The notes below the pieces were generated by a model. That model did not search any database. It was not told the DNA's origin and worked only from the letters and a program-made list of their open reading frames with translations. DNA of 50,092 bases from a virus, in the IMG/VR virus record IMGVR_UViG_3300043313_002047, positions 1-50,092 of that record; one strand, 5' to 3'. Position numbers and translations under genes: made by a program. Below, piece after piece: positions 3,381 through 50,092 of this stretch (within the stretch, counting starts at the first letter, position 1; each line of letters starts with the position of its first letter).

Positions 3381-3389
3381 GAGGAGCAG

Positions 3390-5513: not shown

Positions 5514-5565
5514 TCAGTCAAGTACCTGACACACCATCGGATATTTTGGAGGAAAACGCCTTCCG
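5509..5565 (+). promoter_or_regulatory. Short AT-richer gap with inverted repeat; possible promoter/operator
   Basis: CTTGA-tcag-TCAAG (5509-5522) is a perfect short inverted repeat overlapping the GP88 stop. It is followed by a locally AT-rich stretch, GATATTTTGGAGG, which gives the next gene its GGAGG site. TATTTT could serve as a weak -10, but no convincing -35 lies at the right distance. It is the only break in an otherwise fully overlapped gene string. Confidence 0.3.
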
Positions 5566-6377: not shown

Positions 6378-6547
6378 TGGTCACCACCGGCCGCAAGGCG
6401 AGCTGCCGGGGCAAGCGCAAGTTCGCCACCTCGGCTGGCGCCCGGCTGGCACTCAAAAACGCGAAGGCCGCAGGTCGGCCCGAGAAGCGAGCCTACAAGT
6501 GCCCGGTGTGCGACTACTGGCACCTGACCTCGAAGGAGGAAGCGTGA
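6377..6547 (+). CDS. Small zinc-ribbon-like basic protein
   Basis: A 56-residue very basic protein (Lys/Arg throughout) starting one base inside the preceding stop (TGATG). It ends with CPVCDYWHLTSK, the half zinc-finger (CPxCxxWHLTS) common in small actinophage proteins. With one further Cys near the N-terminus it could bind one zinc ion and nucleic acid. It is just upstream of the helicase. Confidence 0.72.
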   Translation: MVTTGRKASCRGKRKFATSAGARLALKNAKAAGRPEKRAYKCPVCDYWHLTSKEEA

Positions 6548-6768
6548 ACGTCGCCTGCGAGTTCATCGGCGGGCCGTGGGACGGCGAGCACCGATCACTC
6601 TCCATGCTCGCCGTGCGCCTGGGCGTCGTCGTACCGCTGGAGCCGGTGCTGATGATCACCGACACCAGCGCCGGACTGCTCAACCTGCCGTCCGGCGAGT
6701 ACCGCATCCGCCTCGCCGACGTACCCCATGTCCGTCACCGCCGCGTCCGGCTCGACTGGAACCCATGA
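6544..6768 (+). CDS. Small phage protein with FIGGPWDG motif
   Basis: A 74-residue protein from GTG 6544, overlapping the previous stop as GTGA. It opens with CEFIGGPWDGEH and ends with GEYRIR...RRVRLDW. The F-x-GGP-x-DG opening is recurrent in small beta-fold phage proteins of unknown function. Its stop overlaps the helicase ATG (ATGA). Confidence 0.72.
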   Translation: MNVACEFIGGPWDGEHRSLSMLAVRLGVVVPLEPVLMITDTSAGLLNLPSGEYRIRLADVPHVRHRRVRLDWNP

Positions 6769-30800: not shown

Positions 30801-33800
30801 GGCGATGATCCGCAGCTCCTCCTCGTCCTCCTGCCGTCCGGTGCGCCGGTACTCGTCCCGCTCGTAGCGCATCCGATCGCGGACGCGGCGACGCACTTCC
30901 CGGTTGACGGAGATCTCCATCTCCTCGGCGGTCTGCGGCAGGGCGTAGCCGGGGTTGCGCGCTTCGATGATCACCTGGTCTCCGGCACCGCCGCGATGGA
31001 GCCGCTGCAGCTCGCGGTAGTAGCGCGACACGGGCGCGGTGTCGACGAGGCGCGGCCCGCGATACGTCTTCTGCGGCCGGCCGTCGACGAACTGGAACAG
31101 CGGATCCTCCTCGAACTTGTAGCCGTTGCGGGTGCGGATGCCGCGCTCCAGCACCGTCATCGAGTCCCGGATCGCGTCGTCGAACTCGCGTTCGATCCGT
31201 TCCACGTGAAACGCGATCGGGGCGGGCAGCGAGCCCTCGATCATGCCGAACACGTGGTCGTCGATGGTGCGGACGAGGTCCTCAGAGAACTTGGCCTGCT
31301 TCAGGAGGCGGAGCATGGCGGGGCGGACGGCGACCATCCGGCTGGCGTACTCGGCCAGGCCGACGTCACTCATCTGGTTCATCGACTCGTCCTCGAACCA
31401 GCTCATGCCGTGTTCCTCGGCCAGCTTGACGCCGTGCATCGAGGAGGGGTCGGCGCGCATCCCGGCTTCGGCGGCCTGGTACCAGCGGCCCTCCTCGGCC
31501 AGCACCTCCGGCTTCACGCCGCGGGCGCCCTTGAAGCCGATCGCGCGCAGCAGGTCGCGCTGCTCGTTGACGGCGCGGCGGATCAGCTGCAGCGGCTTCG
31601 CCTGGGCGCGCATCGGCGAGGGCAGGTCGCCACCGGTGAGGGAGGCGGTGATGGCGCGGTTGGAAGCGACGAGATCGTCTTCGGCGATGATCGACGGGCC
31701 GTGCGTGGCGAGGGCGCGCTCGGGCAGCTCGGCCGCGAAGCCGCGCTTGGGAATGAACCGCTCCATCTCGCGGCCCAGGATCGCGACGCCCTTGAAGCCC
31801 TTACCGACAAAGTTGAGCGGGTCGAACACGGCGGTGAGCGCCATCTGCGTCCAGAAGCCCTGCTCCTCGAACCAGATGCGGGCTTCGCGGTCGTAGTCGT
31901 GGTTCGACATCGTGCCGGCCGTCCAGCCGCCCTGGATGGAGCGCTGCACGTCGGTGCGGGCGAGGGCGATGAAGATGTCGCGCGCTTCCATGGTGGCGGC
32001 GACGGCCTGCAGGGTGACCCACTCGGCGGGCCGTCCGGCCTGGTGGGCGCCCTCGAACACGGCGGGCAGCACCGGCATGTCGAGGCCGGGGATGTTGCCG
32101 TGCGTCATCGACTGCTCGAAGCTGGCGGGCACGATCGAAGTGAGAGCGCCGAGGAAGTCGTCGTTCTCGACGGCGGCGCTGAAGTCCTGCTGGGCGCTCT
32201 TGTGCACCTTGATGTAGGCCGAGTTCGGGTCGGTCCAGACGCGGGTCTCGGTAACGGGCACCATCACGCTGACGCCGCCGCGAGGCCCGGCGACGCGCTC
32301 CATCTTCGGCGTGCCGTCGCCGTTCAGCACCGGCACCGTCTGGCGCCGCACCAGGTACTCGATGGTGTCGTTCTCGGCCGTGCCGCGGATCGTCTCCTCC
32401 ATCCCGGCCTGTTCGACGGCGAGCTGCTGCAGGTAGGAGGTGTAGACCTCGAACTCCTGCCTGGTCTCGGACAGGGCAATCGTCTGGGGGACGCCGGAGG
32501 CGAGCGCGAGCAGGGCGGGGGCGTCTGGCATCAGGCCGTACGGCGTGCCGGCGAACGGGCCCTTGGCGCCCTTCTTGGGGAGTCCGCCGTGGCCGAACAG
32601 CTGGGCGGCGTCGAAGGCGTCGAGCCGCTGCTGGGCGTACAGGTAGTCGGGGTAGTCCTCCTTCGCCTGCAGCGCGGCGGCGGCGAGCAGCGCCTGCGCT
32701 TCCCATCCGGCCTTGCGGCTGCGCGCCTGTCGCCAGGCGGTGGTGAAGTCCATGTCCATGCCGGTGCTGCGCTGCGCCTTGGCCCAGACGCCGGTCTTGA
32801 CGAACTTCTCCTTCAGCTTGTGGTAGCCGATCATCTCCTGCCGGTGCTGCTCGATGTGGGCGGCGGCGATCAGCGCGTCGGCGGTGCGGGCGTCGAAGTT
32901 GCCGTCCTCGAGCACCGGGCGTCCGGCAATCCTGACGCCCATCCGGTTCGCGTAGCCCTGCAGCACCTTCGTGAACTCCTGCGTCGGCACGCGCGCAACG
33001 CCATCCTTGGAGGGCTTCGTGACGGTAAAACGCTGCTTCAGGGTGACGCCATCGTTCTGCAGCAGCCAGGCGAGGTCGTTGCCGCTGAGCGACTGAAGGC
33101 CCTCGCCGAATCCCTCGACGCCGTGCAGACGAGCGAGCTGGTCAGGGGTGAGGGTGTCGTGGAACAGGCCGAGGGTGGCCTTGTCGACGCGGGCTTTGAG
33201 GGCGCGCGTCATCTCCGCCTGAAACTCCTCGAAGGCGCTGTGCTGGAGCGCCTTTCGGAGCGTCATGCCGGGTCGCAGCACGCCGGACTGCTCGGCCAGG
33301 GCCTGGGCGGCGGCGAGCGCGCCGGGCGTCTTCTGCTTGATCAGCTGGTAGATGTCGTTCAGCTGCGCGCTGCGCGTCTTCTCGTTCAGCAGGTGGGCCT
33401 GCGTGTCGGAGTCGGCGATGCCGTTTGCGGCCTGCTGGCGGACGCCCTGCATCTGGGCGTTGCCGACGGCGGCGAGGCGGTCGATGCTGCGCGCCCGGTC
33501 GTAGCCGTCTTCGGGCAGGCCGACCTGGTTCCAGGCGGCGCGCGAGCGGCGTCCCCAGATGCCGTCGACGGTGACGGGGTGGCCGAGGGTGCGCATCAGC
33601 CGCTGGCGGCGCAGCGCCACCTCGTCGATCGGGTGCAGGATCTTCGGGACGACGACCTTGATCGGCCCGGTCTTGGAGGGCTTGTTGCGGTCGCGCGGCG
33701 CTGGCCGGCCGATCGCGGCAGGCTTGACTTTCGGCTTCGGCTTGTGCGGTCTGCCCGGTACCCGTCCGCCGCCGCCGACTGCAGAGCCGGTGGTGATGTC

Positions 33801-33812
33801 CGGATTCGGCAT
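24846..33812 (-). CDS. Giant virion-associated polyvalent protein (2,988 residues) with HExxH motif
   Basis: A single uninterrupted 2,988-residue chain, by far the largest gene. In order: a Lys/Pro-rich N-terminus (1-60); two peptidoglycan-binding-like motifs (VDGIWGRRSRAAW at 82-94, EDGNFDARTADALIAAA at 302-318); long helical regions; a zincin motif HEVAH (1234-1238, in AATFLHEVAHTMAMGIE) with an acidic DDEL downstream. Further on are a hydrophobic segment (FAALPFSMTWLLANVV, about 1935-1955), an LFDYNDITVGEENLRLLLPF / YWRKNLGYW block (about 2140-2160) seen in other giant phage proteins, and six or more C-terminal repeats ending (H/N/Y)PE(L/I/V)..YF (about 2440-2910). It lies between portal and scaffold. 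I infer it is packaged and injected, helping DNA cross the wall and membrane and possibly cleaving host protein. Confidence 0.85.
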   Translation of the reverse strand: MPNPDITTGSAVGGGGRVPGRPHKPKPKVKPAAIGRPAPRDRNKPSKTGPIKVVVPKILHPIDEVALRRQRLMRTLGHPVTVDGIWGRRSRAAWNQVGLPEDGYDRARSIDRLAAVGNAQMQGVRQQAANGIADSDTQAHLLNEKTRSAQLNDIYQLIKQKTPGALAAAQALAEQSGVLRPGMTLRKALQHSAFEEFQAEMTRALKARVDKATLGLFHDTLTPDQLARLHGVEGFGEGLQSLSGNDLAWLLQNDGVTLKQRFTVTKPSKDGVARVPTQEFTKVLQGYANRMGVRIAGRPVLEDGNFDARTADALIAAAHIEQHRQEMIGYHKLKEKFVKTGVWAKAQRSTGMDMDFTTAWRQARSRKAGWEAQALLAAAALQAKEDYPDYLYAQQRLDAFDAAQLFGHGGLPKKGAKGPFAGTPYGLMPDAPALLALASGVPQTIALSETRQEFEVYTSYLQQLAVEQAGMEETIRGTAENDTIEYLVRRQTVPVLNGDGTPKMERVAGPRGGVSVMVPVTETRVWTDPNSAYIKVHKSAQQDFSAAVENDDFLGALTSIVPASFEQSMTHGNIPGLDMPVLPAVFEGAHQAGRPAEWVTLQAVAATMEARDIFIALARTDVQRSIQGGWTAGTMSNHDYDREARIWFEEQGFWTQMALTAVFDPLNFVGKGFKGVAILGREMERFIPKRGFAAELPERALATHGPSIIAEDDLVASNRAITASLTGGDLPSPMRAQAKPLQLIRRAVNEQRDLLRAIGFKGARGVKPEVLAEEGRWYQAAEAGMRADPSSMHGVKLAEEHGMSWFEDESMNQMSDVGLAEYASRMVAVRPAMLRLLKQAKFSEDLVRTIDDHVFGMIEGSLPAPIAFHVERIEREFDDAIRDSMTVLERGIRTRNGYKFEEDPLFQFVDGRPQKTYRGPRLVDTAPVSRYYRELQRLHRGGAGDQVIIEARNPGYALPQTAEEMEISVNREVRRRVRDRMRYERDEYRRTGRQEDEEELRIIAETHEARIRREVQSYWTPGGGKTRAEQAEAQAVLDTRHDLAMAAKEQSKRNRDAIIAERTRQAQVLANLIQSEGLSGKLANALAQLGLKGRLEHAADEAVDDTLERQGATADEALIIRARRQIEEHVGSFDPRMATNTFNTEEMVSRLEEVSGSILRSLNDGQIPDAFNAEMWREALLRYADAEHPSMRIKWYEFGPGKKGGPHARRYKKGTSEIKTWKPENAVTAATFLHEVAHTMAMGIEAGLTREGGKLDDELITSLIAIRLRKELFPNLDADAVAMFDARLAKAFAHYYYAEAESTAAARMFEISEQGIAGFSADEVKPFLQTIADMDTDMPVVEPEALSFEAKPGDEGYDAQQAQNRAKLQAARDEQRTLRQAKAKEATRQVLQDAYDREQAIKQGLLGEAVEGDKDLAAPMRDVLAQAMTGGLARRGLALSEDNVDSFFHAVRREGLDVRMPDAFKRLVGNLPYRHPDVESAFQQLQEADELATRAFKTYFEAREGRFVDHTSIGLLKEESQAATDNYWKASDRVFSRLLRLMDPHYLERMALEMEGEQLRLSKLAKPTYEQRMVATIHRASAKSLRGYLAAGDASRGQISEVNRAVTSLHRELVGLNRQVRQHHEAYLSASRTEQGLRQRMREMGSAPAGTFFDSRPTIRIEQDPEVGTRSENVGKINDARDGVAWAEGERMATEPRRTTVELTSPANQNDKLYVRAGDFAIDERGVHTHEGQLYEEFIKDPDTGKPKRQALPLDAVSLADLTEGQLQTLFESGRISPADTLKAGPKRAFFGDETRTAPAAYVEIPKYVKGKTRMVRVSTENLRRGVPPQIGDEIRAELRRQIEAGATLDTLDTTIVEQLAKDNPLYADSIHLFAHRQTVGMAMRGWKHASNVADKQAMSSLLAERGLYISALSFHTSRSARYTYKALNVSLQVWKFAALPFSMTWLLANVVDNFAKRLISGLVDPKEMALAPLRTGARATGTLSKFAVHAVYQAAREGDRMFNTHVADQLDGILRAVTHYDANVRNTFLRAHHIDVPGEIAEGGYGVFMASPLDTANRRWDPLDWKGPWKSVKEGNKRDLPAAFAATMWHLVGDLPETAARRAAYNVAYRKAIKEGLSVDQAVEKAIGRVNATLFDYNDITVGEENLRLLLPFVVYWRKNLGYWMREVPQHPWIVSNLQRLEEYRSDPMLEEGKDPLARYFDVTGVVDDVLGHLGIDVPDGVAWDPVKLFSIRVVYELMFSSQNPNMPPDQGGIEVVNRILGYFDDIGLGVNPYLRAGLQAFDVYEAQSWRSIFPETGLVEGLSREWWHERFPNGINIERFLLDPLYEPFHDGQSLSDLREADINYYVQVEMSRQAMAGKQPNRAEAEDSVRGFFGVAALVQMTAGVYLRRMNGQDRELLRLRQMARTDFNSLTPHQMAVNTVDRERFKTSEMMDRAVEAYPMIEVYYRTSDYRERQQLLQLYPEISPYVQRTKARQQFANPLLDSARRQRLKRDTLLANQRGLVAQIYNDMKSSSFDSDQRSRVYGAMVTPDLRRYMTEHQTSRSQADAFVRGEYYSFVNKVSQAFHDIPEDDYARRSEFIARNPYLQDYWTLTATPEKDGVSIVNAANAAYRSWYFAVVESEGWDAAAEILEAHPQMFDLTKAAGRVDRATGKWQPKTMADIKRHASDYARMKPQLDEYFNQPKGAARAHWLEGHPEVLRYFKVYGADRHYRRRHYRRYAFAHASAPWASRRAEFWHRFFQLPPDQRVKFIEQHAAEYDVFAWGPTADSQLTANAHAFAWGDTPRKEAYKQIAALMQVYFELDPEDRQFFLSANPEIQDYFDQFSTKSPTGDPKLDKVLETYFDTPHDLQPAYLDKHPELKAYFQTKRDTPEEKAIGVLLDAYFGLPKARRPDYLMSHPELQGFFDERKQQQDMIDAYDEALTEADPRYKRYKGSEEYLRARAEIHLRRASLMAGTVNRQTTKLSTRTERSVDDSLVRGPRQPTS

Positions 33813-39993: not shown

Positions 39994-40389
39994 CCGACTC
40001 CCGATAGCCCAGCGACGGAGCCGCGTCAGCACCCAGGGTCGTCCCCTCCCGTGAAAACCGGGGCCGAGCATCGCCGAGAGGCGAGCAGGCGGGCAGCGTA
40101 AAGCTGATACCGACGAAGCAAGCGGCGGACACTCCCTCCCTGACGCGCCCGAAGTGACCATTTTCCGCGCGCACGCGCTATGAACTTCCCGTGGGCTTAA
40201 CCGGGTGTCAAACGCTGAGCGGCGGCGAGATAGGTGCTTCGGTCGCGGCGAGGCGGTGCGAGTCGAAAAGCTGCCCTTAGGAGCGAAGCGACCACTCGCC
40301 GCCAGGCGAGACAAGCGCAGCTCGCGAAGTCCACGACTGGCCGAACGCGCGGCAGTACGCTTGGCTGCACCATCCAGCCAGGAGAGACC
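39994..40389 (+). ncRNA. 396-nt gap with no gene; possible structured RNA/leader
   Basis: No frame shows protein-like composition here. A GNRA-type hairpin is visible: TCGCC-GAGA-GGCGA at 40071-40084. Purine-rich single-strand-like runs (GTGAAAACCG, GCGTAAAGCTGATACC) and CGCGCGCACGCGC occur nearby. It lies between a zinc-finger gene and the promoter of the SAP-domain gene. It could be an RNA gene, a long leader or a replication origin; I cannot tell which. Confidence 0.3.
40356..40382 (+). promoter_or_regulatory. Promoter with hairpin over the ribosome-binding region
   Basis: TACGCT (40356-40361) could be a -10, with ACGACT (40333-40338) 17 bases upstream as a weak -35. TGGCTG (40362-40367) pairs with CAGCCA (40375-40380) just before GGAGAG and ATG 40390. 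The hairpin could be an operator or could modulate initiation. Confidence 0.4.
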
Positions 40390-41526
40390 ATGCACCTGAA
40401 CGATCCCCAGAGCATCGCCCGTCGCGCGCTCGAAATCGCAACCTCGGACACCTCCGAGGTGACGCGAGACTCGCGCGCCGGCTTCGGCAACCACGAGCGC
40501 CGCATCATCGTCGGCATCTCGGAAGCGTTCTGCGAGCTGTTCCGCGAGATGTTCAACGAAGGCGTCGCCGGGGAAGCCTCCGACGAGCGCACGCCGGAGG
40601 AGATCCTCTCCGACCGGGAAGCCGACCTCGAGGAGCGCGAGCGCTCCCTCTCCCAGCGCCAGGACGCGCTCGGCCTGGCGCCCGACCTCTCATCCAAGGA
40701 GCTCGTCGACATGGAGACCCCCGCACCACGAGGCAACGGCGACGCCGAAGCAAAGGCCGCCAAGGAGCAGGAAGAGCGCCAGGCGTCGCTCGACAAGGCC
40801 GCAGCCGCCGCAGACCCCGAGCTGGCCGCACGCTCCGGCCGCGAGCCCGGCGAATCGCCGCTCTCATCGCCCAAGGAGTCGAAGCTGCAGGGCCAGGTGG
40901 AAGACCTCCGCGCCCGCCTGGAGATCGCCGAACGCCAGCTGGCGGAGAACGCGCCGAACATCATCACGCACCCGGCCGACCCGAACCTGAAGGGCACCGA
41001 CGAGACCAAGCCCGGTGAGGAGCTGGAGCAGGGCCCCGGCCCGCACGGCGAAGCCGCCGGCCAGGAGAAGCAGGTCTCGCCGAACGACATCGCCCACACC
41101 CCGACGCCCGCAGACAACGTCGGAGCGGGCGCACAGCTCTCGGAGCACCCGGACGCCGAGACCACCACCGAAGCGAACCGCGACAAGGTCTCGGCCGACA
41201 CGCCGAAGCTGACCTCGCACGAAGGCGACGTCGACCGCCCCGACGCGCCGCTCACCGAAGCCAACGACGGCGAGCCGCCGAGCGACCAGCCCGCCGACCC
41301 GGCAGGCAACCCCGCCAACGCCGCGGCGGAGGGCACCGTCGGCCAGCCACAGCCCGACGACCTGGACTCCGAAGGCATCGCCGGCCTCAAGTACGCCGAG
41401 CTGCGCGCGTACGCCGAGGCCCGCAACATCGAAACCACCGCCGAGGGCAAGATGCTGTCGGCAGCCGACCTGCGCAAGGCGATCGACAAGGACGCCAAGA
41501 AGCGCGAGAAGGCCTCGCAGGGCTAG
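40390..41526 (+). CDS. Coiled-coil protein with C-terminal SAP/HeH-like DNA-binding motif
   Basis: A 378-residue protein. Residues 1-60 are a helical domain (FGNHERRIIVGISEAFCELFREMF). Residues 70-100 are a coiled coil (DREADLEERERSLSQRQDAL). Residues 105-320 are largely disordered Pro/Glu/Ala/Asp sequence with a second short coiled coil. The C-terminus (about 330-370) reads GLKYAELRAYAEARNIETTAEG, then KMLSAADLRKAID, matching the SAP/HeH helix-extension-helix pattern that binds DNA or RNA. It stands alone between a promoter and a U-tract terminator, so it is a single-gene unit that may be strongly expressed. Confidence 0.78.
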   Translation: MHLNDPQSIARRALEIATSDTSEVTRDSRAGFGNHERRIIVGISEAFCELFREMFNEGVAGEASDERTPEEILSDREADLEERERSLSQRQDALGLAPDLSSKELVDMETPAPRGNGDAEAKAAKEQEERQASLDKAAAAADPELAARSGREPGESPLSSPKESKLQGQVEDLRARLEIAERQLAENAPNIITHPADPNLKGTDETKPGEELEQGPGPHGEAAGQEKQVSPNDIAHTPTPADNVGAGAQLSEHPDAETTTEANRDKVSADTPKLTSHEGDVDRPDAPLTEANDGEPPSDQPADPAGNPANAAAEGTVGQPQPDDLDSEGIAGLKYAELRAYAEARNIETTAEGKMLSAADLRKAIDKDAKKREKASQG

Positions 41527-41551
41527 CACCCCGCACGCACCACCGGCCACC

Positions 41552-41588
41552 AAGCCCCGGTCAGCTACCAGAGTGACCGGGGCTTTTT
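41552..41588 (+). terminator. Intrinsic terminator
   Basis: AAGCCCCGGTCA (41552-41563) pairs perfectly with TGACCGGGGCTT (41574-41585) around a 10-nt loop and runs into a TTTTT tract. A textbook rho-independent terminator for the SAP-domain gene. Confidence 0.9.
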
Positions 41589-42060
41589 GCTGCCCCCATA
41601 ACAAGCTGGAAAAAGATGGGCAAGGTCGGAACTCGTTAAGTGTGTCGGGGGCAAGACAGAGCAATAACACCAACCACCACCGATCCCTCCCACAAGCGAC
41701 AGACCAGCGAGCCCAGCCTCCTCCAACCAGGCCAATCACTGCTCACCATGGGGGGCTGCACGAGCAACAACTCAAGCCTGTCCTCGCCCCTGCCTCACCC
41801 ACTCAGGCATGCCACGCATGGCTGGTACTCACACGCTGCATCAGGCTGCGACAGGCGTTGCGCCTGCGCTTCGCTCCGGTCGCACGGTGCTCTCCTCCTC
41901 CGACCTGTCCCATCGTGAGGCTACCTAACCATCACCGCCCACGTGGGGACAGGTCTCCTCCGGAGGTGCTGGCGCACGCGCACCTACCTCCCTTCGCGAA
42001 GCGCAGGCGCGGGCTGCTGCGCCAGCCTCCAAGCACGGTCGCTCGCCTCCAACCAGTCCG

Positions 42061-42102
42061 CCCACCGGCTACCCAAACGATAGTGCCGTTTGGGCCGGTG
42101 GG
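42061..42102 (+). other. Bulged hairpin A (CCCAAA/TTTGGG type)
   Basis: CCCACCGG (42061-42068) pairs with CCGGTGGG (42095-42102). After a 3-nt bulge on the 5' side, CCCAAACG (42072-42079) pairs with CGTTTGGG (42087-42094); loop ATAGTGC. Sixteen perfect pairs in all. Same layout as hairpins at 42292 and 44886. Confidence 0.8.
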
Positions 42103-42291
42103 GGCCTGGGATGTTCGGCGGCGATCCGCCTGCCCCTGGGTATTCAAGGCTTCCTCACCCAGACCGGCCGGCGATTGCCAGGCATGGCCAGTGTCCGGCT
42201 GGCAGGCGGGGCTGCTGTTTGTTCTGCCTGACTCTCTCATCGTACCCCTTGTCTGGCCCAGGTAAAGGTCGGCGAGGCACGAGCTTCCTTC

Positions 42292-42332
42292 ACATGGCAG
42301 CCAAAAACGGTAGAGCTGTTTTTGGGCCATGT
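42292..42332 (+). other. Bulged hairpin B (CCAAAA/TTTTGG type)
   Basis: ACATGGC (42292-42298) pairs with GCCATGT (42326-42332). After a 2-nt bulge (AG) on the 5' side, CCAAAAAC (42301-42308) pairs with GTTTTTGG (42318-42325); loop of 9 nt. Fifteen perfect pairs. Same layout as hairpins A and C. Confidence 0.8.
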
Positions 42333-42439
42333 TGAAGCGTCTCGCACCTCGCCTCTCTTGACCTGGGCCAGCCTGCGGGGTTCTTCTGAGAGGTCAGGCG
42401 TGAAACACCTCGCGTCTGCAAGGACCTCGGAGGTCTGAG

Positions 42440-43120
42440 ATGTTCGAGCGCATGCCCGCCCCGCACGACCACGGCGCCTCGCGCCTGCTCGCCCTCGTCC
42501 GCAACCTGGACGCCCACCTGGCCTCGGGCGCCGTGCCCGCAATGCCCCGCGTGCCCAACGGCCACGTCTTCACGGACATCGAGTTCCCGCGCTGCTGGGA
42601 CTGCGACTCCGAGCTGCTCAATTCCGGCGAGTGCCCGACCTGCAACTACCGCGACGACTACGAGGCTGAGGAGGCCACCATGTCTGCACCGATCGAGCCC
42701 ACGCCCTGCGACGACACGCACGGCTGGCACGGCGAGTGCTCGGGCTGCGGGAACACGACCTGCACCTGCGACCCCGAGCCGTGCCCGGACTGCGGCGGCT
42801 ACGGCGACTGCACCTGCTTCGACACGGGGGAGGGAGTCGACGCCGCTCCGCTCCTGACGCCGGAGCAGGAGCAGGCGCAGATGACGCTCAACTCCCGCAT
42901 GTGGGCGTCCAAGCTCGGTGGCCTGCACTGCATGGCGGTGTGCTGCGACGTGGCGTACTCGCCGCTGCTGGAGGCCTACACGACGTCGTCGGCGTTCGGT
43001 CGCGAGTGGCTCGCCACGTACCTGCTGGCGGGTGTGCGTGCCCCGATGATCCTCGTCATCCCGAGCACCGGCAAGACGGTGCGCGTGGCGTCCATCCTCA
43101 ACAACGACTCGGAGGTCTGA
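42440..43120 (+). CDS. Cys-rich multi-zinc-ribbon protein
   Basis: A 226-residue protein with GGAGG before ATG 42440. Cys pairs are dense: CWDCDSE and CPTCNY (about 52-70), CSGCGNTTCTCDPEPCPDCGGYGDCTC (in two parts, about 99-125). At least two to three zinc ribbons are likely. The C-terminal 75 residues form a separate globular part ending in VIPSTGKTVRVASIL. No known family. It may be a nucleic-acid or protein-interaction factor and follows the structured region directly. Confidence 0.72.
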   Translation: MFERMPAPHDHGASRLLALVRNLDAHLASGAVPAMPRVPNGHVFTDIEFPRCWDCDSELLNSGECPTCNYRDDYEAEEATMSAPIEPTPCDDTHGWHGECSGCGNTTCTCDPEPCPDCGGYGDCTCFDTGEGVDAAPLLTPEQEQAQMTLNSRMWASKLGGLHCMAVCCDVAYSPLLEAYTTSSAFGREWLATYLLAGVRAPMILVIPSTGKTVRVASILNNDSEV

Positions 43121-43122
43121 CC

Positions 43123-43332
43123 ATGGGACTCGTCCCTGAACGCCGCTGCATGATCGACGCGGCGATCGACCACATGCCGCTCGTGCTCGAGCTGCGCAGC
43201 GCGATGGCCGTGAGCTTGCCCGGCCCGACGACGCTGCTGCACGCGATGGTCGATGCGTATCCGCGCATCGACTCCTACGGCCTCTGGCTCGCCTGCCAGT
43301 GGGCCGCCACTACCGCCCCCGAAGGAGCGTGA
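43123..43332 (+). CDS. Small hypothetical protein
   Basis: A 69-residue protein two bases after the previous stop, with GGAGGTCTGACC before ATG 43123. The 13-base string CTCGGAGGTCTGA also precedes the upstream gene (42426-42438), so this start region is duplicated. Helical, no motif. Confidence 0.65.
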   Translation: MGLVPERRCMIDAAIDHMPLVLELRSAMAVSLPGPTTLLHAMVDAYPRIDSYGLWLACQWAATTAPEGA

Positions 43333-43336
43333 CCTG

Positions 43337-44038
43337 ATGATGTCGCACGACGCGCTCAAGCGTGACGTTGCCCGCTTCACGTACACCGGCGTCGGTTCCC
43401 GCCAGACGCCCGCCGAGATCCTGTCGCTGATGGAGCGCATCGCGGCTCGCCTCGCGTCCCACACCCTGTACACGCTCCGCTCCGGCGGGGCGGACGGCGC
43501 GGACGCTGCGTTCGCACGGGGCGCCGGCGCGCAGGCCGAGATCTACCTGCCCTGGCGCTCCTTCGCACCCGGTCAGCATCCGCGTGCCGAGCTGCTCGTC
43601 ACCGGCGACGATCCCGACGCCCGCGCGATCGCGGCCTCGTACCACCCGAACTGGGCTGCCTGCTCCAGGGGCGCGCGTGCCCTGCACACCCGCAACGTCC
43701 ATCAGGTGCTGGGCCGCAACCTCGCCCAGCCGTCGAACTTCCTGCTCTGCTGGACTCCGGGTGGTCACGCGCTCGGTGGCACCGCAACCGCCATCAAGCT
43801 CGCGAAGGCACACAACGTGGTGGTGTACAACCTCTACAACGACCTGCACCGGATGCCCTGGCTGGACTGGGCGACCGGCAACGGCTCGGAGAAGATCGAC
43901 CGGATGTTCGAGCTGGTGGACTTCGTGTCGCGTCCCTCGCCACCCGCTCCGAAGCCGCAGCGCACCGCGCCGCGCACCATCCCGGAGATGACCGAGAACG
44001 ACATCTACTGGAAGTCGCTGGAGGATCTCGACCGCTAG
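43337..44038 (+). CDS. SLOG/DprA-like Rossmann-fold nucleotide-binding protein
   Basis: A 233-residue protein. FTYTGVGSRQTPAEIL (14-29) and TLRSGGADGADAAFARGA (about 45-62) are the phosphate-binding loops of the SLOG superfamily (DprA/YpsA/LOG-like). These are followed by EIYLPWRSF, a NVHQVLGRNL block, PSNFLLCWTPGGHALGGTATAIKLA and VVVYNLYN. The core spans about 12-185; the tail is Pro-rich. Phages often carry this family. Proposed roles are DNA processing, or binding of NAD- or nucleotide-derived signals; the ligand is unknown. Confidence 0.82.
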   Translation: MMSHDALKRDVARFTYTGVGSRQTPAEILSLMERIAARLASHTLYTLRSGGADGADAAFARGAGAQAEIYLPWRSFAPGQHPRAELLVTGDDPDARAIAASYHPNWAACSRGARALHTRNVHQVLGRNLAQPSNFLLCWTPGGHALGGTATAIKLAKAHNVVVYNLYNDLHRMPWLDWATGNGSEKIDRMFELVDFVSRPSPPAPKPQRTAPRTIPEMTENDIYWKSLEDLDR

Positions 44039-44046
44039 CGACGGCT

Positions 44047-44079
44047 GGGGACGGTGGGGCTTCGTGCCCTGCCGTCCCC
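44047..44079 (+). terminator. Hairpin terminator after the SLOG gene
   Basis: GGGGACGG (44047-44054) pairs with CCGTCCCC (44072-44079), with an inner GGG/CCC pairing. The following TATGCTATTTT gives a T-rich tail and doubles as the -10 of the HNH gene. Confidence 0.7.
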
Positions 44080-44085
44080 TATGCT
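44080..44085 (+). promoter_or_regulatory. Candidate HNH-gene promoter (-10 TATGCT)
   Basis: TATGCT immediately follows the SLOG terminator and lies 14 bases before ATG 44100. The resulting leader would be about 8 nt and lacks a Shine-Dalgarno sequence. The same box precedes the gene at 39799. Confidence 0.45.
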
Positions 44086-44099
44086 ATTTTGGCTCCACC

Positions 44100-45266
44100 A
44101 TGAAGTCTTTTTGGGAGCGAGTAGATCAACGTGGCCCTGATGAATGCTGGCCGTGGCTCGGTCAGACACGCAACGGCTACGGCCGCGTCTACCTCGGTGA
44201 GGGACGACGCACCAACGCACACCGCAAGGCCTACGAACTGACACACGGTCCGATCGCACCAGGCCTGCAGATCGACCACGTCAAGGCCCGTGGCTGCTCT
44301 CGCCGCGACTGCTGCAACCCGAGGCACTTGGAAGCCGTCACGGCACGCGAGAACATCCGCCGCGGCGACACCGGCAAGTGGCAGCGCACGCCAGCAACGC
44401 ACTGCATCCACGGGCACCCGTTCGATGCCGCCAACACGCGGATACGGACGAACGGGACGCAGCAGTGCCGAACATGCCATCGCGAGAGCCAGAGGCGTTA
44501 CCGCGCCGCCCAGCGTGGCTCCACCGCGGCGCGTTGGCGCACTCCAGGCGAAGGGCGGGGGCGTGTCGAGGGGAGCACGGCAGGCGGGTGGCGGGCGGAC
44601 GCGGGGCCGCGCTCCAGGCGAAGGTCAAGGGCAACACGGGCAAGCAGATTTCGGGAGAGTTTGAGAGAGGTGGGGTTGAAAGTCTTGGCGGGTCGGGTCT
44701 GCCATCCGAACAGGGCCTGCCGCTCTTTGGCCCGAGACGCGGTGGTCACGCTCGGTTTCACGTCCGGGGGTCTTGATCCGGCATGCACTGATCGGAGCAC
44801 GGTCACCGACTCGTCCGGCCCGGCTCGGCAAGCCTCGCTCGGGCCGTCCCACGTCTCGCCGGCGGGTAAAGCACGAAAGATGCCGGTCCGGGGCAAGAGA
44901 CCAAATCGCTGCGCGATTTGGGCCCCGGACGGCCCGATCGCGCTTGACCCGCCGTCGTGCCCGTGCGTCCGGTGCATGTCCGGAGCAAGACCGCCTCGGA
45001 CGCGAAACAAGGAGCGTGACCATGTCCGCGATCTCGAACCCCGCGAGCGAGAAGGCCCTGGCCTACTGGCTGACCCTCGCCACCAAGCTCGGGGAGTCGG
45101 TGGATGTCCTGCCGGAGACGGTGCAGGAGTGCTCGGAGCAGATCGACAACTTCCGTGGCCGGATCCCGGCGACGGTGGGCCAGGTCAGCCTGGCGGAGAA
45201 GCTGCTCGGCGATCACCTGCCCGGCAAGGCGCTGCCCCCGAACGCCTCCACGAAGCTGGCCGGTGA
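44100..45266 (+). CDS. HNH endonuclease, C-terminus probably run-on
   Basis: Residues 1-145 (44100 to about 44535) are a complete HNH_3-type protein. ECWPWLGQTRNGYGRVYLG comes first, then AHRKAYELTHGPIAPGLQIDHVKARGCSRRDCCNPRHLEAVTARENIRRG with the H-D-H/N metal-finger core, and finally CIHGHPFDAANTRIRTNGTQQCRTCHRE...RRYRAA, the usual C-terminal zinc unit. The frame then stays open for about 240 more residues of Arg/Gly/Pro-rich, non-protein-like sequence and overlaps the next real gene by 245 bases. I take the true domain end as about 44535 and regard the rest as run-on through a non-coding region. Homing-type genes like this insert near conserved sites. Confidence 0.72.
   Translation: MKSFWERVDQRGPDECWPWLGQTRNGYGRVYLGEGRRTNAHRKAYELTHGPIAPGLQIDHVKARGCSRRDCCNPRHLEAVTARENIRRGDTGKWQRTPATHCIHGHPFDAANTRIRTNGTQQCRTCHRESQRRYRAAQRGSTAARWRTPGEGRGRVEGSTAGGWRADAGPRSRRRSRATRASRFRESLREVGLKVLAGRVCHPNRACRSLARDAVVTLGFTSGGLDPACTDRSTVTDSSGPARQASLGPSHVSPAGKARKMPVRGKRPNRCAIWAPDGPIALDPPSCPCVRCMSGARPPRTRNKERDHVRDLEPREREGPGLLADPRHQARGVGGCPAGDGAGVLGADRQLPWPDPGDGGPGQPGGEAARRSPARQGAAPERLHEAGR
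44536..45021 (+). other. Barely coding, structured stretch after the HNH domain
   Basis: All three forward frames stay open here by composition alone. A 13-base direct repeat CTCCAGGCGAAGG occurs at 44542-44554 and 44612-44624. GGTGGTCACGCTC (from about 44740) can pair imperfectly with GAGCACGGTCACC (from about 44795). A very stable bulged hairpin sits at 44886-44930. The segment ends at the AAGGAG site of the gene at 45022. Confidence 0.45.
44886..44930 (+). other. Bulged hairpin C (CCAAAT/ATTTGG type)
   Basis: GTCCGGGGC (44886-44894) pairs with GCCCCGGAC (44922-44930). After a 6-nt bulge (AAGAGA) on the 5' side, CCAAATCGC (44901-44909) pairs with GCGATTTGG (44913-44921) around a TGC loop. 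Eighteen perfect pairs. Same layout as hairpins A and B. Confidence 0.8.
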
Positions 45267-45594
45267 CCTGATCGAGAACTTCTCGAAGCGGCCGCCGACC
45301 AAGGCGATGCTGTCCCGCATCCGCTCGCTGGAGATGTCGGTGCAGATCGACAACCCGAACGTCCCGCGCACCACGAAGGCGCTCTACGAGCGGGAGATGC
45401 ACGCCAAGAACCTCCTCGAGGGCGGCGACCTGGTCGGTCAGCTGATCGACGCGACCGATGCGCGCCGCGACGAGTGGGGCCTGGTGGACGCCGAGCTGGC
45501 GCCCGCCACCGCCGAGCAGGTCGATGACTCGCAGCCCGAGTCGCCGAACACGTCGGTGATGACCAACGGCCGCTCGAAGGGCCCGAAGGCCTGA
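45022..45594 (+). CDS. Hypothetical protein
   Basis: A 190-residue protein with AAGGAG before ATG 45022, followed by a U-tract terminator. Helical through about 130 (SNPASEKALAYWLTLATKLGESV, LIENFSKRPPTKAMLSRIRSLEM), then an acidic, disordered C-terminal third. It contains no Cys cluster and no motif I recognise. It is a single-gene unit, like the SAP-domain gene. Confidence 0.72.
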   Translation: MSAISNPASEKALAYWLTLATKLGESVDVLPETVQECSEQIDNFRGRIPATVGQVSLAEKLLGDHLPGKALPPNASTKLAGDLIENFSKRPPTKAMLSRIRSLEMSVQIDNPNVPRTTKALYEREMHAKNLLEGGDLVGQLIDATDARRDEWGLVDAELAPATAEQVDDSQPESPNTSVMTNGRSKGPKA

Positions 45595-45614
45595 TCCTCC
45601 ACAACGGATCACTG

Positions 45615-45649
45615 GGGCGCCTCGCCGGCCGCGGCGAGGCGCCCTTTTT
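45615..45649 (+). terminator. Intrinsic terminator
   Basis: GGGCGCCTCGCC (45615-45626) pairs perfectly with GGCGAGGCGCCC (45633-45644) around a 6-nt loop, followed by TTTTT (45645-45649). Confidence 0.92.
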
Positions 45650-45856
45650 CGTGGACCGACCCGGTTCACGGAAGGAGGCCACGCGATGCTCTAGCCCCTC
45701 CGAGACGTTCTGGGGCTGGCGGCCGGTGCTCCGAGCGCCGGCCGCCTCTACCCGCGTGGGGCTATCGAGCCTCAATCGGCCGCGTGATGAACGCACACCC
45801 TTGCATCCCCGCAAAACCTGACGCAGACTGGGATTTAGATTCCCGGAGGAGACCCC
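45650..45856 (+). promoter_or_regulatory. 207-nt leader with hairpins and a two-codon ORF
   Basis: AAGGAGG (45672-45678) precedes ATG CTC TAG (45686-45694), a perfect ribosome-binding site for a two-residue ORF. AGCCCC (45693-45698) can pair with GGGGCT at 45712-45717 or with another GGGGCT at about 45757-45762, so two folds compete. GGCGGCCGG (45718-45726) forms a 13-bp hairpin with 45738-45746 through a U-G wobble and a GCT/AGC extension. TAGATT (45836-45841) is a possible -10 for the next gene. It looks like an attenuator-type leader, but this is unproven. Confidence 0.4.
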
Positions 45857-46321
45857 ATGGCACTGAAGCAGCTGCGCCGCACCGTGCGCGACCTGGTGGA
45901 GCTCGTCAACGACGCGATCACCGACCTCGACACCGTCTTCAAGCGCCTCGACGCCTACGCGACGCTGGCCAACGAGCATGATCGGCACTTCCAGAACCTG
46001 TTCGAGCGACTCCGCGTTGCCGAGCGCAAGCTGGAGGGGCAGTCGAACGTGCTCGGCATGCAGCGCGCCGACATCAACCAGGCCGCGATCGACATCTCGA
46101 ACCTGGCCGAGCGCGTGTCGGCACTCGAAGACTTCAACGACATGCGGGCCAGCCACCAGCTCGAAGCGCATCGTCCACTGATCGCCGTCATCGGCCAGCC
46201 CGAGCCCGCATTCACCACGCCAGACCCGTTCGACCAGACCGTGCTCGACCACATGCCCGTCGACCTGTCCGACCAGTTCCCCAACGCGCCCATCGTGGGC
46301 GAGGAGATCCCACCGGCATGA
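45857..46321 (+). CDS. Coiled-coil hypothetical protein
   Basis: A 154-residue protein with GGAGGAGA before ATG 45857. Residues 1-95 are one long heptad-rich helix (LRRTVRDLVELVNDAITDLDTVFKRL, RVAERKLEGQ..., ISNLAERVSALED) and the C-terminus is Pro-rich and acidic, ending EEIPPA. First gene of the last rightward operon. Function unknown. Confidence 0.72.
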   Translation: MALKQLRRTVRDLVELVNDAITDLDTVFKRLDAYATLANEHDRHFQNLFERLRVAERKLEGQSNVLGMQRADINQAAIDISNLAERVSALEDFNDMRASHQLEAHRPLIAVIGQPEPAFTTPDPFDQTVLDHMPVDLSDQFPNAPIVGEEIPPA

Positions 46322-46755
46322 ACCACTACCTGAAGCTCCTCGTCGCCGCGGCCCTGCTCGTGCTGCTCGTGACGTGCGTGCCGGCCGCGCACGCCGACAC
46401 GTCGCAGCGCGTCAACACGACAACGCTGACGCACGTCGTGCACAAGGCGCAGACCGAGATCTGGCTGCACAACATCCGCAAGGCGCACGGCTCGCGCACC
46501 ACCTGCACCTTCGCCGACTACAAGGGCACCGCCCCGCACGCCTTCGGCACCGTGCGCAGCTGCATCACGCGCATCTACCGGCACTCCGACTACACCGGGC
46601 GCCTGGCGACCATCAAGGTGAAGATCCTGATGGTTCCGCGCTACCAGCGGGTGCTGTACGAGGATGGCTCCGGCTGGGAGGATTACCCGATCCAGCCGCA
46701 GGACAAGCACCGCAAGCGGTCGGTGTACATGAACGTGATCTGGGTGCATCCGTGA
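46318..46755 (+). CDS. Secreted hypothetical protein
   Basis: A 145-residue protein in ATGA overlap. Strong signal peptide: MNHYLKLLVAAALLVLLVTC then VPAAHA with probable cleavage at about residue 26. A lipoprotein-type Cys at 20 is not in a clear lipobox. The mature part is beta-rich with two Cys (about 63 and 82). Related in layout to the other secreted small proteins in this phage; role unknown. Confidence 0.75.
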   Translation: MNHYLKLLVAAALLVLLVTCVPAAHADTSQRVNTTTLTHVVHKAQTEIWLHNIRKAHGSRTTCTFADYKGTAPHAFGTVRSCITRIYRHSDYTGRLATIKVKILMVPRYQRVLYEDGSGWEDYPIQPQDKHRKRSVYMNVIWVHP

Positions 46756-46979
46756 AGATCTCGATGAGCTTCCAGGACGCCCTCGACGTCGCCTCCGAGC
46801 AGGGCCAGCTGCTCGACCGCAACCGCGGCAACAAGGTCGTCGCGATGCGCTTCCACGCCGCCTGGCTGAACGTGCGGCGCACCATCCACCGCGACTTCCC
46901 CGACTGCTACGGCGACCCGGACGACATCGCCGACCCGCAGACCATCGAGCTGGCCGATGCCATGCTGGACGAGGCATGA
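46752..46979 (+). CDS. Hypothetical protein
   Basis: A 75-residue protein from GTG 46752 in GTGA overlap. Helical and amphipathic with an acidic end (DDIADPQTIELADAMLDEA). No family recognised. Confidence 0.66.
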   Translation: MKISMSFQDALDVASEQGQLLDRNRGNKVVAMRFHAAWLNVRRTIHRDFPDCYGDPDDIADPQTIELADAMLDEA

Positions 46980-47440
46980 CCCACTACGACGCCTTCGGCC
47001 TCCCGGTCGAGCACGAGATCGAGCGTGCCGTCCGGCGGATGGTCGAACATCCTCAACTCTCAAGGGAGAGTTCAATGATCACGATCGTGCGCGCCACCAC
47101 CGACGGCCACTGCTCGCTGCACCAGCTCGACATCTCCACACCCGACTCCGGCCTTCTGCAGATGCAGGGCCTGATCGGCGGCTACGTCGAGGTGTTCGGC
47201 CTGAACGGCGGCGGCGACCTCTGGGTCGACGAGGACGGCGTCGGCAAGGACCTCGAGCTGAACACCGTAGGGATGCTGATGGTGCAGCACACCGGCACCG
47301 CCATGATGCCCGGCGACTACATCAAGGGCACCTGCCTGATCATCGGCTCGCCGACCGAGGCGGGCGACCTGACCAGCGTCCCGGAGGCCACCATCGCCTG
47401 GCTGAAGCGATCGCAGATCACGACGTGGCCCGATGCCTAA
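46976..47440 (+). CDS. DUF3846-like protein
   Basis: A 154-residue protein in ATGA overlap. The region from about residue 55 (GLLQMQGLIGGYVEVFGL, DLWVDEDGVGKDLELNTVGMLM, GDYIKGTCLIIG) fits the DUF3846 pattern of small phage proteins of unknown function. An in-frame ATG at 47074 with AAGGGAGAG upstream could give a second, shorter product lacking the first 33 residues. Those residues resemble a separate helical tag. Confidence 0.65.
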   Translation: MTHYDAFGLPVEHEIERAVRRMVEHPQLSRESSMITIVRATTDGHCSLHQLDISTPDSGLLQMQGLIGGYVEVFGLNGGGDLWVDEDGVGKDLELNTVGMLMVQHTGTAMMPGDYIKGTCLIIGSPTEAGDLTSVPEATIAWLKRSQITTWPDA

Positions 47441-47801
47441 GGAGCCACGTCCCAACCTGATCTGCGTCGCCACCGTCACCCGCCGCTCGACGGACACCCA
47501 GATCCAGTCCACGCACCAGCTGGCGATCACGTTCGACAACGAGTTCGCGCGGCGCCAGGTCGAGCAGAAGACGCTGGAGGAGCTGGCGACCGGCGCCTAT
47601 CCGGGCGCGCTGGGAGCGCAGGCGAACTACGAGAACGCGAAGCACGAGCTGCTGCGCCTCAAGAACTGGCCACCCGATCCGGTGCAGGTCGAGGCCGTCA
47701 TCGAGCAGGCCTACAATGCCGGCCTGACGATGGGCGCCCGCGCCGCCGTGAAGGACACCGCGCCGTTCATCTGGCGCACCGCCACGGAGTTGGACCTGTG
47801 A
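47433..47801 (+). CDS. Hypothetical protein
   Basis: A 122-residue protein whose ATG 47433 overlaps the previous 3' end by 8 bases. A beta-like N-terminus (LICVATVTRRSTDTQIQ, HQLAITFDNEFARRQVEQ) is followed by helices and an Ala/Gly-rich C-terminal helix. No motif recognised. Confidence 0.68.
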   Translation: MPKEPRPNLICVATVTRRSTDTQIQSTHQLAITFDNEFARRQVEQKTLEELATGAYPGALGAQANYENAKHELLRLKNWPPDPVQVEAVIEQAYNAGLTMGARAAVKDTAPFIWRTATELDL

Positions 47802-47935
47802 GCCGCTTCGGCCTCAACCACTTCTTCCTGATCCGCCTCGTCGGCTACGGCCTGGTCGCCTACTCGGCTGGCCTGATCGCGGCGATCGGCGTCACGCTGG
47901 CCGTCGCCGCGATGGGCGGCGAGGTGATCGAGTGA
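47798..47935 (+). CDS. Small membrane protein (45 residues)
   Basis: GTG 47798 overlaps the upstream stop as GTGA, and its TGA overlaps the next start as GTGA. The product has an N-terminal FGLNHFFLIRLVGYG and one hydrophobic, Gly/Ala-rich span (LVAYSAGLIAAIGVTLAVAAM). A one- or two-span membrane peptide of unknown function; a pinholin-like or regulator role is possible. Confidence 0.62.
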   Translation: MSRFGLNHFFLIRLVGYGLVAYSAGLIAAIGVTLAVAAMGGEVIE

Positions 47936-48141
47936 GCGACGACACGCCGCTCAAGCATTTCCTGGACTCCGGCTACCAGGCCGAGTTCGGGATCACGGTG
48001 GAGGGCGCGCACGCCGACGGCATCTGCGCCTGCTGCCGCAAACCACCCACCTTCCACACCGAAGCCGGGGCCCGCGAGTACCAGATCTCGGCGCTCTGCG
48101 AGCCGTGCTTCGACAAGCTGTTCCCCGAGGAGGGGCCGTGA
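47932..48141 (+). CDS. Zinc-ribbon protein
   Basis: A 69-residue acidic protein from GTG 47932. CACCRKPPTFH (about 33-43) and CEPCFDKLF (about 56-64) supply a CxxC...CxxC zinc ribbon. Similar small ribbons cluster in this operon. Confidence 0.7.
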   Translation: MSDDTPLKHFLDSGYQAEFGITVEGAHADGICACCRKPPTFHTEAGAREYQISALCEPCFDKLFPEEGP

Positions 48142-48290
48142 GCACCCGATACCGCGACGAGGCCTGGCTGCGCGCCGTCCTCAACCGCCATCCCGAGGAC
48201 CAGCTCGACCCGCAGCGCACCTGGTCGTACCGGATCGCCGCCGTCGCCGACTACATCGCCGACTGGCGCTGGCTCAGGCGCCGGCGATGA
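48138..48290 (+). CDS. Small hypothetical protein
   Basis: A 50-residue protein from GTG 48138 in GTGA overlap. Trp/Arg-rich and helical, ending in WRWLRRRR. No motif; kept because both junctions are stop-start overlaps. Confidence 0.6.
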   Translation: MSTRYRDEAWLRAVLNRHPEDQLDPQRTWSYRIAAVADYIADWRWLRRRR

Positions 48291-48580
48291 CCAGCACCGA
48301 CAACCTCCCGACCTGTTGGCTGTGCCCGGAGTGCGGTGCGCAGATCAACGGCGCGGCGGACTGGCCCGAGTTCCACTACGCGATGCGAGCCGATCATCGC
48401 TGCGATGGGGTGATGGAACGCGCGACGATCCTTCCTCCCTCGATGACCGACGAGCAGCGCCTCGCGATCCTGTCCGGCCCCATGAACCTCGAAGTCACCG
48501 AGGTGACCAAGGGGTTGTCGCACTACTTCTTCCAAGACGGCCTTGTGGTGCGTCCGCGTTCGGCGGCGACCGATGCCTGA
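48287..48580 (+). CDS. Zinc-binding hypothetical protein
   Basis: A 97-residue protein in ATGA overlap. CWLCPECGAQ (about 10-19), then H and C further on (FHYAMRADHRC), suggest one zinc site in the N-terminal half. The C-terminal half is mixed alpha/beta. Function unknown. Confidence 0.66.
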   Translation: MTSTDNLPTCWLCPECGAQINGAADWPEFHYAMRADHRCDGVMERATILPPSMTDEQRLAILSGPMNLEVTEVTKGLSHYFFQDGLVVRPRSAATDA

Positions 48581-48782
48581 CCTCGTCGACTGTCCGCACT
48601 GCGGCGGTCGCGTCCACCCCCGCTCGACCTGCCCGAAGTCGATCGTCTGCCCGAACTGCAAGGCGCCTCCCGGTGCCCGCTGCAAGCGCCCGAGCGGCCA
48701 CGCGTGCGCAATGCACCAGCAGCGGATCGCATTCGCGGAGCACGCCGACAAGCAGAAGGGGATTCGCTATGCGACCCGTTGA
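48573..48782 (+). CDS. Double zinc-finger protein
   Basis: A 69-residue basic protein. CPHCGG (7-12) with downstream C makes one knuckle. CPNCKAPPGARCKRPSGHACAMHQQR (about 26-51) is the CPxC-x-APPG-x-C...H-x-x-R finger typical of small actinophage proteins. Likely nucleic-acid binding. Confidence 0.72.
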   Translation: MPDLVDCPHCGGRVHPRSTCPKSIVCPNCKAPPGARCKRPSGHACAMHQQRIAFAEHADKQKGIRYATR

Positions 48783-48963
48783 CCACTGGCTGATCACCAC
48801 CGCCGCGTTCTTCTCGGCGGCGCTGACGGCGTTCATCTCCTACCAGTTCGACCCGACGCTCCTGGCCCGCTGGGCGACCGTGGTGTCTGGCACCCTGGGC
48901 GTCATCTCACTGTCCGTTGCCGCCGTGCTCGCCTGGCTCGATGGCGAGTACCGAGGGCGGTAG
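48769..48963 (+). CDS. Two-span membrane protein, holin-like
   Basis: A 64-residue protein overlapping its upstream neighbour by 14 bases, with AGAAGGGG upstream. Two hydrophobic spans (WLITTAAFFSAALTAFISY at about 7-25, VVSGTLGVISLSVAAVLAWL at about 38-57) and a charged end (DGEYRGR). Directly followed by a secreted lysozyme-like gene. It is therefore a second holin candidate besides the one at 13190-13489. Confidence 0.62.
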   Translation: MRPVDHWLITTAAFFSAALTAFISYQFDPTLLARWATVVSGTLGVISLSVAAVLAWLDGEYRGR

Positions 48964-48992
48964 CGGACCCGACCGGAAGGAGCACACCCCCC

Positions 48993-49496
48993 GTGCTCGC
49001 AACCCATCGCCGACTCGCGATCTGCCTCCTGGCACTCGCGATGCTGGCAACCATGATCGGTGTCGCCGACTCCAAGAAGCGGCACCACATCACCGTCGCC
49101 GAGCTCGTGCACGACGCGCACGGCCGGCCGAACCAGTGCGACTTCGATCACGACAAGCGCTGGGGCCCGAAGCAGGTGCAGTGCGCGATCCGGGTCGTCT
49201 GGCCCGACAATGCAGAGGATGCCGCTGTCAGCGTCGCCTACTGCGAATCGCGCTTCGATCCGAACTCGAAGAACCGCTCCTCCACGGCGAGCGGGCTGTT
49301 CCAGTTCCTGTCCGGGACGTGGGGCGGCAACCCGCAGTTCCGCAAGGCGTTCCGGCAGGCGAAGGCACGCGGCTGGTCGTACGGCCGCTCCATCCACGCC
49401 GCCTACCGGGCGGTGTTCGACCCTGTCCGTAACATCAAGGGCGCCCTCTGGCTCTACCAGCAATCCGGCTGGTCGCCGTGGGTGTGCAAACCCTAG
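48993..49496 (+). CDS. Secreted lysozyme/transglycosylase-like protein
   Basis: A 167-residue protein from GTG 48993 with GGAAGGAG upstream. An N-terminal signal peptide (RRLAICLLALAMLATMIGVADS) directs export. The fold signature VAYCESRFDPNSKN, STASGLFQF, LSGTW (about 81-110) is that of SLT/Rpf-like glycosidases, with E85 as the catalytic Glu, so it should cut glycan strands of peptidoglycan. It is separate from the late-operon amidase and sits beside SSB, so it may be made early. Exported without a holin, it could remodel the wall or exclude superinfecting phage. Confidence 0.82.
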   Translation: MLATHRRLAICLLALAMLATMIGVADSKKRHHITVAELVHDAHGRPNQCDFDHDKRWGPKQVQCAIRVVWPDNAEDAAVSVAYCESRFDPNSKNRSSTASGLFQFLSGTWGGNPQFRKAFRQAKARGWSYGRSIHAAYRAVFDPVRNIKGALWLYQQSGWSPWVCKP

Positions 49497-49510
49497 ATCC
49501 GAGGAGGATC

Positions 49511-50014
49511 ATGGCACGAGGAAACCAGGTGACCCTGATCGGGAACCTGACCAACGACCCGAAGCCGCACACGTTCGATTCGGGCACCAAGAAGGCCACG
49601 TTCGGCCTCGCCTGGAACGAGGATCGCAAGAAGGACGACGGCTCGTGGGAGTCGATCGGGCACTTCTTCGAGGTCGAGGTGTGGGGCGGCACGGTGCAGA
49701 CCGCGATGAAGTTCTCGAAGGGGAACTTCGTCGCCGTCACCGGCCGCCTGGCGTGGCGCAAGTGGGAGAAGGACGGCGTCGGCTTCGAGAAGGTCTACGT
49801 CGTCGCCGACGGCGTCTTCGGCGAGAAGATGTACGAGAAGGGGGACGGGTCTCAGTCCGGCGGTGAACAGCCGAACCAGGAGCGCTCCCGGAGCCGCAGC
49901 GCGGGCTCGGATTCGGATTCGCAGCCGCGTACCCGTACCCGTCAGGCCGAGCCGGCCGCGAAGGTGAACGCCCCAGGCGATCCGTCCGAGGTGGACGAAG
50001 ACACGCCCTGGTGA
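49511..50014 (+). CDS. ssb: Single-stranded DNA-binding protein
   Basis: A 167-residue SSB; GAGGAGG lies just before ATG 49511. OB-fold at about 1-110: NQVTLIGNLTNDPKPHTF, ATFGLAWNEDR, IGHFFEVEVWGGTVQTAMKFSKGNFVAVTGRLAWRKWE. A Ser/Arg/Gln-rich linker follows. The acidic tip VDEDTPW is a variant of the canonical DDDIPF, with Trp in place of the last Phe. It is the last gene before the genome junction and so lies directly upstream of the ParB/helicase operon on the circle. Confidence 0.94.
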   Translation: MARGNQVTLIGNLTNDPKPHTFDSGTKKATFGLAWNEDRKKDDGSWESIGHFFEVEVWGGTVQTAMKFSKGNFVAVTGRLAWRKWEKDGVGFEKVYVVADGVFGEKMYEKGDGSQSGGEQPNQERSRSRSAGSDSDSQPRTRTRQAEPAAKVNAPGDPSEVDEDTPW

Positions 50015-50023
50015 CCGACCCGT

Positions 50024-50092
50024 AAGACCCGCGGGCCCGGCTCCCCCCGGAGCCGGGCCCGCCACCCGAGGCTTGCACACCCCACCAAGGAG
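50024..50092. repeat. Terminal direct repeat, copy 2
   Basis: Identical to bases 1-69; see that entry. It begins 9 bases after the SSB stop codon and ends inside the AAGGAGG ribosome-binding site of the gene that starts at 77. Confidence 0.93.

Follow-up and report, generated by a model that had tools for sequence, protein, structure and literature searches.

A gap of 913 nt between two rightward genes of a virus (positions 41527 to 42439) raises the question of whether the virus makes a large structured RNA and, if so, of what kind. To our knowledge, bacteria and phages have very few RNA classes as large as this. The viral record analyzed here, the whole of which we call the window, is 50,092 bases long (68% GC) and probably represents a complete genome, since it carries a 69-base direct terminal repeat (positions 1 to 69 and 50024 to 50092). 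Its genes form two rightward blocks (50 to 8114 and 40234 to 50014) and, between ~8447 and 39844, a leftward one that includes the capsid and terminase genes. The element lies within the second rightward block, between the genes listed first and last in Table 1; the 430-aa protein encoded upstream of it gave no Pfam or PHROG match and fell into no known family.

Farther along the same block lie a gene for a DprA-like recombination mediator (43253 to 44038, + strand) and an HNH endonuclease gene (44064 to 45266, + strand) of weak codon bias that is perhaps a recent insertion. A leftward gene (24846 to 33812, − strand) encodes a protein of 2,988 aa, possibly an internal virion protein, which had no PHROG match and has a 2,359-aa homologue in the related phage G001 described below.

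Coding status, borders, and folding of the gap

An earlier note on this DNA had reported that no protein-like frame spans positions 41589 to 42439, and our analysis agrees. The entire gap is devoid of codon periodicity, the position-specific GC spread being 0.02 to 0.13 across positions 41500 to 42400, compared with 0.35 to 0.45 in the flanking genes. Open reading frames are present mechanically (for example, one of 230 aa at 41573 to 42265), and none has coding bias. An all-against-all comparison of the frames in the relatives' elements gave matches that were short and weak only. Gene calling left other gaps of 0.45 to 0.98 kb, and so the length of the gap by itself is not unique.

The borders that the note had described, a U-tract terminator upstream and a ribosome-binding site downstream, are both in place. 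The terminator has perfect 12-bp stem arms (41552 to 41563 and 41574 to 41585) followed by T5, and a standard scan missed it because its loop is 10 nt long. No terminator was found between the proposed RNA and the downstream gene, and a sigma-70 scan found no consensus promoter. The RNA probably starts near position 41640 rather than at 41589.

The same note had called the region rich in hairpins, and this description held as well: the region contains a perfect 15-bp helix, a bulged hairpin with 46-nt arms spanning positions 42253 to 42371, and further hairpins, and its folding energy is far below that of shuffled sequence. With the small numbers of dinucleotide shuffles used, the z score was −5.2 on the + strand and −9.4 on the − strand for positions 41589 to 42439 (20 shuffles) and −9.4 and −9.7 on the two strands for the whole gap (12 shuffles). 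The other long gaps of the genome gave scores of 0 to −5.5, and the counterpart element in G001 gave −9.5 and −11.7.

Table 1. Features of the locus, in window coordinates
Feature	Position	Strand	Basis or detail
Upstream protein gene	40234-41526	+	430 aa, hydrophilic; codon bias
Intrinsic terminator between upstream gene and RNA region	41552-41588	+	12-bp perfect inverted repeat, then TTTTT
Proposed large structured RNA (ends approximate)	41640-42439	+	No coding periodicity, low folding energy, counterparts in related phages
P1, 5' hairpin with A/C-rich loop	41643-41694	+	Arms 41643-41651/41686-41694; signature and 48-nt leader match to G009
Arm with 15-bp perfect helix plus inner helices	41860-42010	+	Helix 41860-41874/41996-42010
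H1 arm	42053-42109	+	Apical hairpin 42073-42093, loop AUAGUGC; apex common to G001 and G009 on different stems
3' domain	42226-42399	+	Outer helix 42226-42239/42387-42399; inner 11-bp helix 42253-42263/42361-42371
H2, tip of 3' domain	42301-42325	+	CCAAAAACGG UAGAG CUGUUUUUGG (loop in the middle)
Shine-Dalgarno GGAGG of downstream gene	42429-42433	+	Sequence; ATG at 42440
Downstream protein gene	42440-43120	+	226 aa, Cys-rich; codon bias

Relatives of the element and their shared features

A direct DNA search of phage records found no nucleotide relative, and a search of viral contigs with both flanking proteins found no true relatives. Because direct searches came back empty, we used the virion proteins as a route to related phages. 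The capsid protein led to G001 (49% identity), a sequence of 50,318 bp with colinear virion genes, and a search with an alignment of two terminases yielded 31 loci, among them the complete or near-complete genomes G008, G009, and G010. Each of these four phages has a strongly folded noncoding gap of 0.5 to 1.2 kb upstream of the terminase gene and on the opposite strand, giving five complete members with the window. Two further contigs, the partial contig L158 and L182, contain only the leader part before the contig ends. The place of G010 in the group is supported only by its leader, position, and folding; it has no hairpin with the apex seen in H1 and H2, and it aligns weakly.

The members share a 5' hairpin with a G-rich and a C-rich arm around an A/C-rich loop. 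A scan of ~750 kb for a leader signature (GGGG, then 24 nt rich in A and C, then a C-rich stretch) gave one match each in the window, G001, G008, G009, G010, and L158, always within the gap and on the predicted RNA strand. A further likely match is that of L182. Matches in G015/G014 and overlapping contigs and in L165 were taken to be unrelated.

In alignments, the elements of G001, G008, and G009 scored above all 200 of 200 dinucleotide shuffles when compared with one another, in the codirectional sense only; the similarity lies mainly in the 5' part for G008 with G001 and G009 and at the 3' end for G001 with G009. The window is borderline against every other member, 5 to 10 of 200 shuffles (2.5 to 5%) reaching its score, and its match to G009 is a leader of 48 nt. 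An initial local alignment with lenient gap costs was discarded as near-global. MAFFT was uninformative on whole elements. On the short hairpins it lost register, and their pairs were therefore taken straight from the sequences.

Two hairpins with an NWAGWGCY apex are present in each of three members: AUAGUGCC and GUAGAGCU in the window, AUAGAGCC and AAAGAGCC in G001, and AUAGAGCC and GAAGAGCU in G009. The apex of H2 in the window is also that of H2 in G009 (CGG-AAGAG-CUG), on a different stem. On the + strand of the three elements, six of seven occurrences of NWAGWGCY sit on stems of at least 6 bp; across the genomes as a whole, the count is 23 of 196. The sequence differs among the six stems, which argues that pairing, and not sequence, has been kept. 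Since the stems had been looked for, the result is supportive and is not a formal test of covariation. The motifs were recognized partly post hoc: NWAGWGCY was first noticed in the window, widened after G001, and, once fixed on these two, met again in G009.

A helix of 11 to 15 bp closes the 3' domain in all five complete members and ends 25 to 68 nt before the next ATG. Compared with shuffled sequence, its P value was 0.01 to 0.05 in each member and 7e-5 when combined (Fisher), although random places in the genome of G010 equaled that phage's helix in 15% of trials. The outer helices of G001 and G009 differ by several paired substitutions that keep the base pairs (CACACGUUCUCUCC/GGAGAGAACGUGUG and CACUUCUAUCC/GGAUAGAAGUG). 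This comparison of structure covers few and highly divergent members and consists of motif and helix counts, not formal covariation.

A DNA pattern describing the two hairpins of the window matched 15 viral and more than 100 genomic stretches. No other part of the element lay near any of them, and we therefore judged them to be chance matches or bacterial REP-like repeats. Many REP-like repeats (GTGGGCAAACGATAGAGCCGTTTGCCCACCCTAC) do occur in L031, L046, L049, and other Methylococcales loci, with an apex of the CG-AUAGAGC-CG type like that of H1, and Granulicella has a hairpin similar to this REP-like/H1 type; the likeness of apex is probably a coincidence.

Strand, position, and probable role

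Both strands of the element fold well, the minus strand slightly better, so that folding energy does not settle which is transcribed. We prefer the + strand as the RNA strand on four grounds: the A/C-rich loop always lies on the same strand relative to the terminase gene, A and C are abundant and G is scarce at unpaired + strand positions, the element is codirectional with the next gene, and the + strand of H2 in both the window and G009 contains a G-U pair, which would become an A-C mismatch on the complementary strand. The first and last of these observations also speak against an element that acts as DNA, such as a replication origin or a packaging or recombination site with its inverted repeats forming DNA hairpins. 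Good folding of both strands would suit such a site, and hairpins with kept stems would fit single-stranded DNA too, but the element has no array of direct repeats, and we consider a DNA-level role improbable.

The gene directly after the element differs among the five members. A homologue of the one in G009 is found at the opposite end of the G001 contig, and by tblastn the genes after the element in the window (which encodes the 226-aa protein), G008, and G010 had no match in the other members. A DprA-like gene is located 0.8 kb past the element in the window, and in G009 the distance is ~2.1 kb. Judged from these sequences, what is constant is the element and not the gene downstream of it, in keeping with an RNA that is not dedicated to any single gene.

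Because no terminator separates the RNA from the next gene, the main rival is a giant structured 5' leader acting in cis on the rightward operon, for instance one that controls antitermination or translation and is recognized by a phage protein. The shared direction of element and gene would agree with this, as would the ribosome-binding site, which in G001 and G009 falls within a small hairpin (CCUACU..UUAGGAGG). Known cis leader elements of such kind are, however, far shorter than 0.5 to 1.2 kb. The put RNA of HK022, an antitermination leader, resembles the element in being structured and located close to where an operon starts but has two hairpins in less than 100 nt, the element being roughly ten times longer. 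With the first downstream gene different in the window, G008, G009, and G010, we regard a cis leader as unlikely, if the most serious of the alternatives.

The size of the element, its folding, its repeated apex, and its indifference to the downstream gene are best fitted by a scaffold acting in trans or a self-assembling RNA. Our favored reading, which we hold with some confidence, is that the element is the gene for an ~800-nt structured RNA of a class outside Rfam, which heads the operon, is copied from it in the + sense, and most likely serves as a scaffold in trans. The noncoding gap, the excess folding, the matching position and strand, the signature, and the repeated apex can be read directly from the DNA; transcription, the RNA ends, trans action, and a partner are inferred. 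Transcription of the + strand would begin immediately past the terminator at 41588, at the head of the rightward operon, and would yield an RNA with a 5' hairpin exposing the A/C-rich loop and a long 3' helix closing a domain just ahead of the next start codon. The RNA would then be either released from the downstream mRNA or read through into it. A trans-acting scaffold appears the most likely function, in which the repeated NWAGWGCY apex may bind a phage or host protein or may join several copies of the RNA. A bolder proposal, which we put forward tentatively, is that the members form a previously undescribed class of large phage RNA that stands by itself and is found in a broad range of uncultured phages, the duplicated NWAGWGCY hairpins and the A/C-rich loop serving to assemble it into a particle, either ribonucleoprotein or RNA-only.

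The most A+C-rich 120 bases of the window lie in the element on the RNA strand, and the same is true of G008. In L182, likely a distant member, a 120-base stretch upstream of the terminase gene (849 to 975, − strand; the RNA strand) reaches 91% A+C and is followed by many GC-rich hairpins, resembling an extreme version of the leader. Composition of this kind would suit a site, built around the C-rich, G-poor leader, that loads Rho or a different binder of single-stranded RNA or acts as its decoy. Such a site would explain neither why the element folds so extensively nor why a hairpin apex is repeated in it, and a functional rut site placed 5' would itself shut off the operon; we give this explanation very little credence.

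Known large RNAs and regions in more distant phages

The earlier note had proposed that the element is either GOLLD/ROOL-like or a new class. The former did not hold up: neither the window, at any position, nor the relatives' elements gave an Rfam match at gathering score. Permissive searches of both gave only unrelated families at chance level, GOLLD not being among them. The covariance models of GOLLD and of ROOL matched neither the window nor the relatives' elements. GOLLD is often found near tRNAs or carries them, and its expression rises during lysis; ROOL, too, is often found near tRNA islands. As the note had said, no tRNA lies beside the element, there being none in the window. Of the relatives' loci that were scanned, G001 alone carries a tRNA close to its element; a tRNA was the sole Rfam match at gathering score in the G001 stretch searched.

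GOLLD is phage encoded, around 800 nt long, and extensively structured by prediction, with no protein product, and ROOL is a large ornate RNA of phages and prophages; both form multimeric nanocages, and the function of both is unknown (PMC12286853). The element shares with GOLLD its phage origin, size of ~800 nt, much predicted secondary structure, and lack of a protein, and with ROOL its large and ornate character and phage setting. It differs from GOLLD in its leader and hairpins, in heading an operon, and in the lack of an adjoining tRNA in the window, and from ROOL in standing apart from tRNA islands. Given its size and setting on one side and the failure of the covariance models and the lack of a tRNA array on the other, we consider it extremely improbable that the element is a diverged member of either family. 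A role comparable to theirs is possible.

The alternative that the note had left open, a new class, gains from the folded noncoding counterparts with shared elements in divergent phages, and we conclude that the element probably represents such a class, a large structured phage RNA that heads the rightward operon. No description of it was found among open-license papers. A further unrelated class with a fixed operon position and a simple searchable signature would allow the question of why phages produce large folded RNAs to be asked in an independent setting, and would demonstrate that conserved position can lead to such RNAs once nucleotide similarity is almost gone.

Other loci (G012, G015/G014, L166, L170, and L178) have an A/C-rich noncoding stretch in a similar place and were not counted as members because the full signature is absent. 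L216/L217 (G015, positions 44224 to 45184), L170, and L178, which come from more distant phages, have a conserved, alignable intergenic region of ~600 nt in a similar place, and that of G015 is itself well folded.
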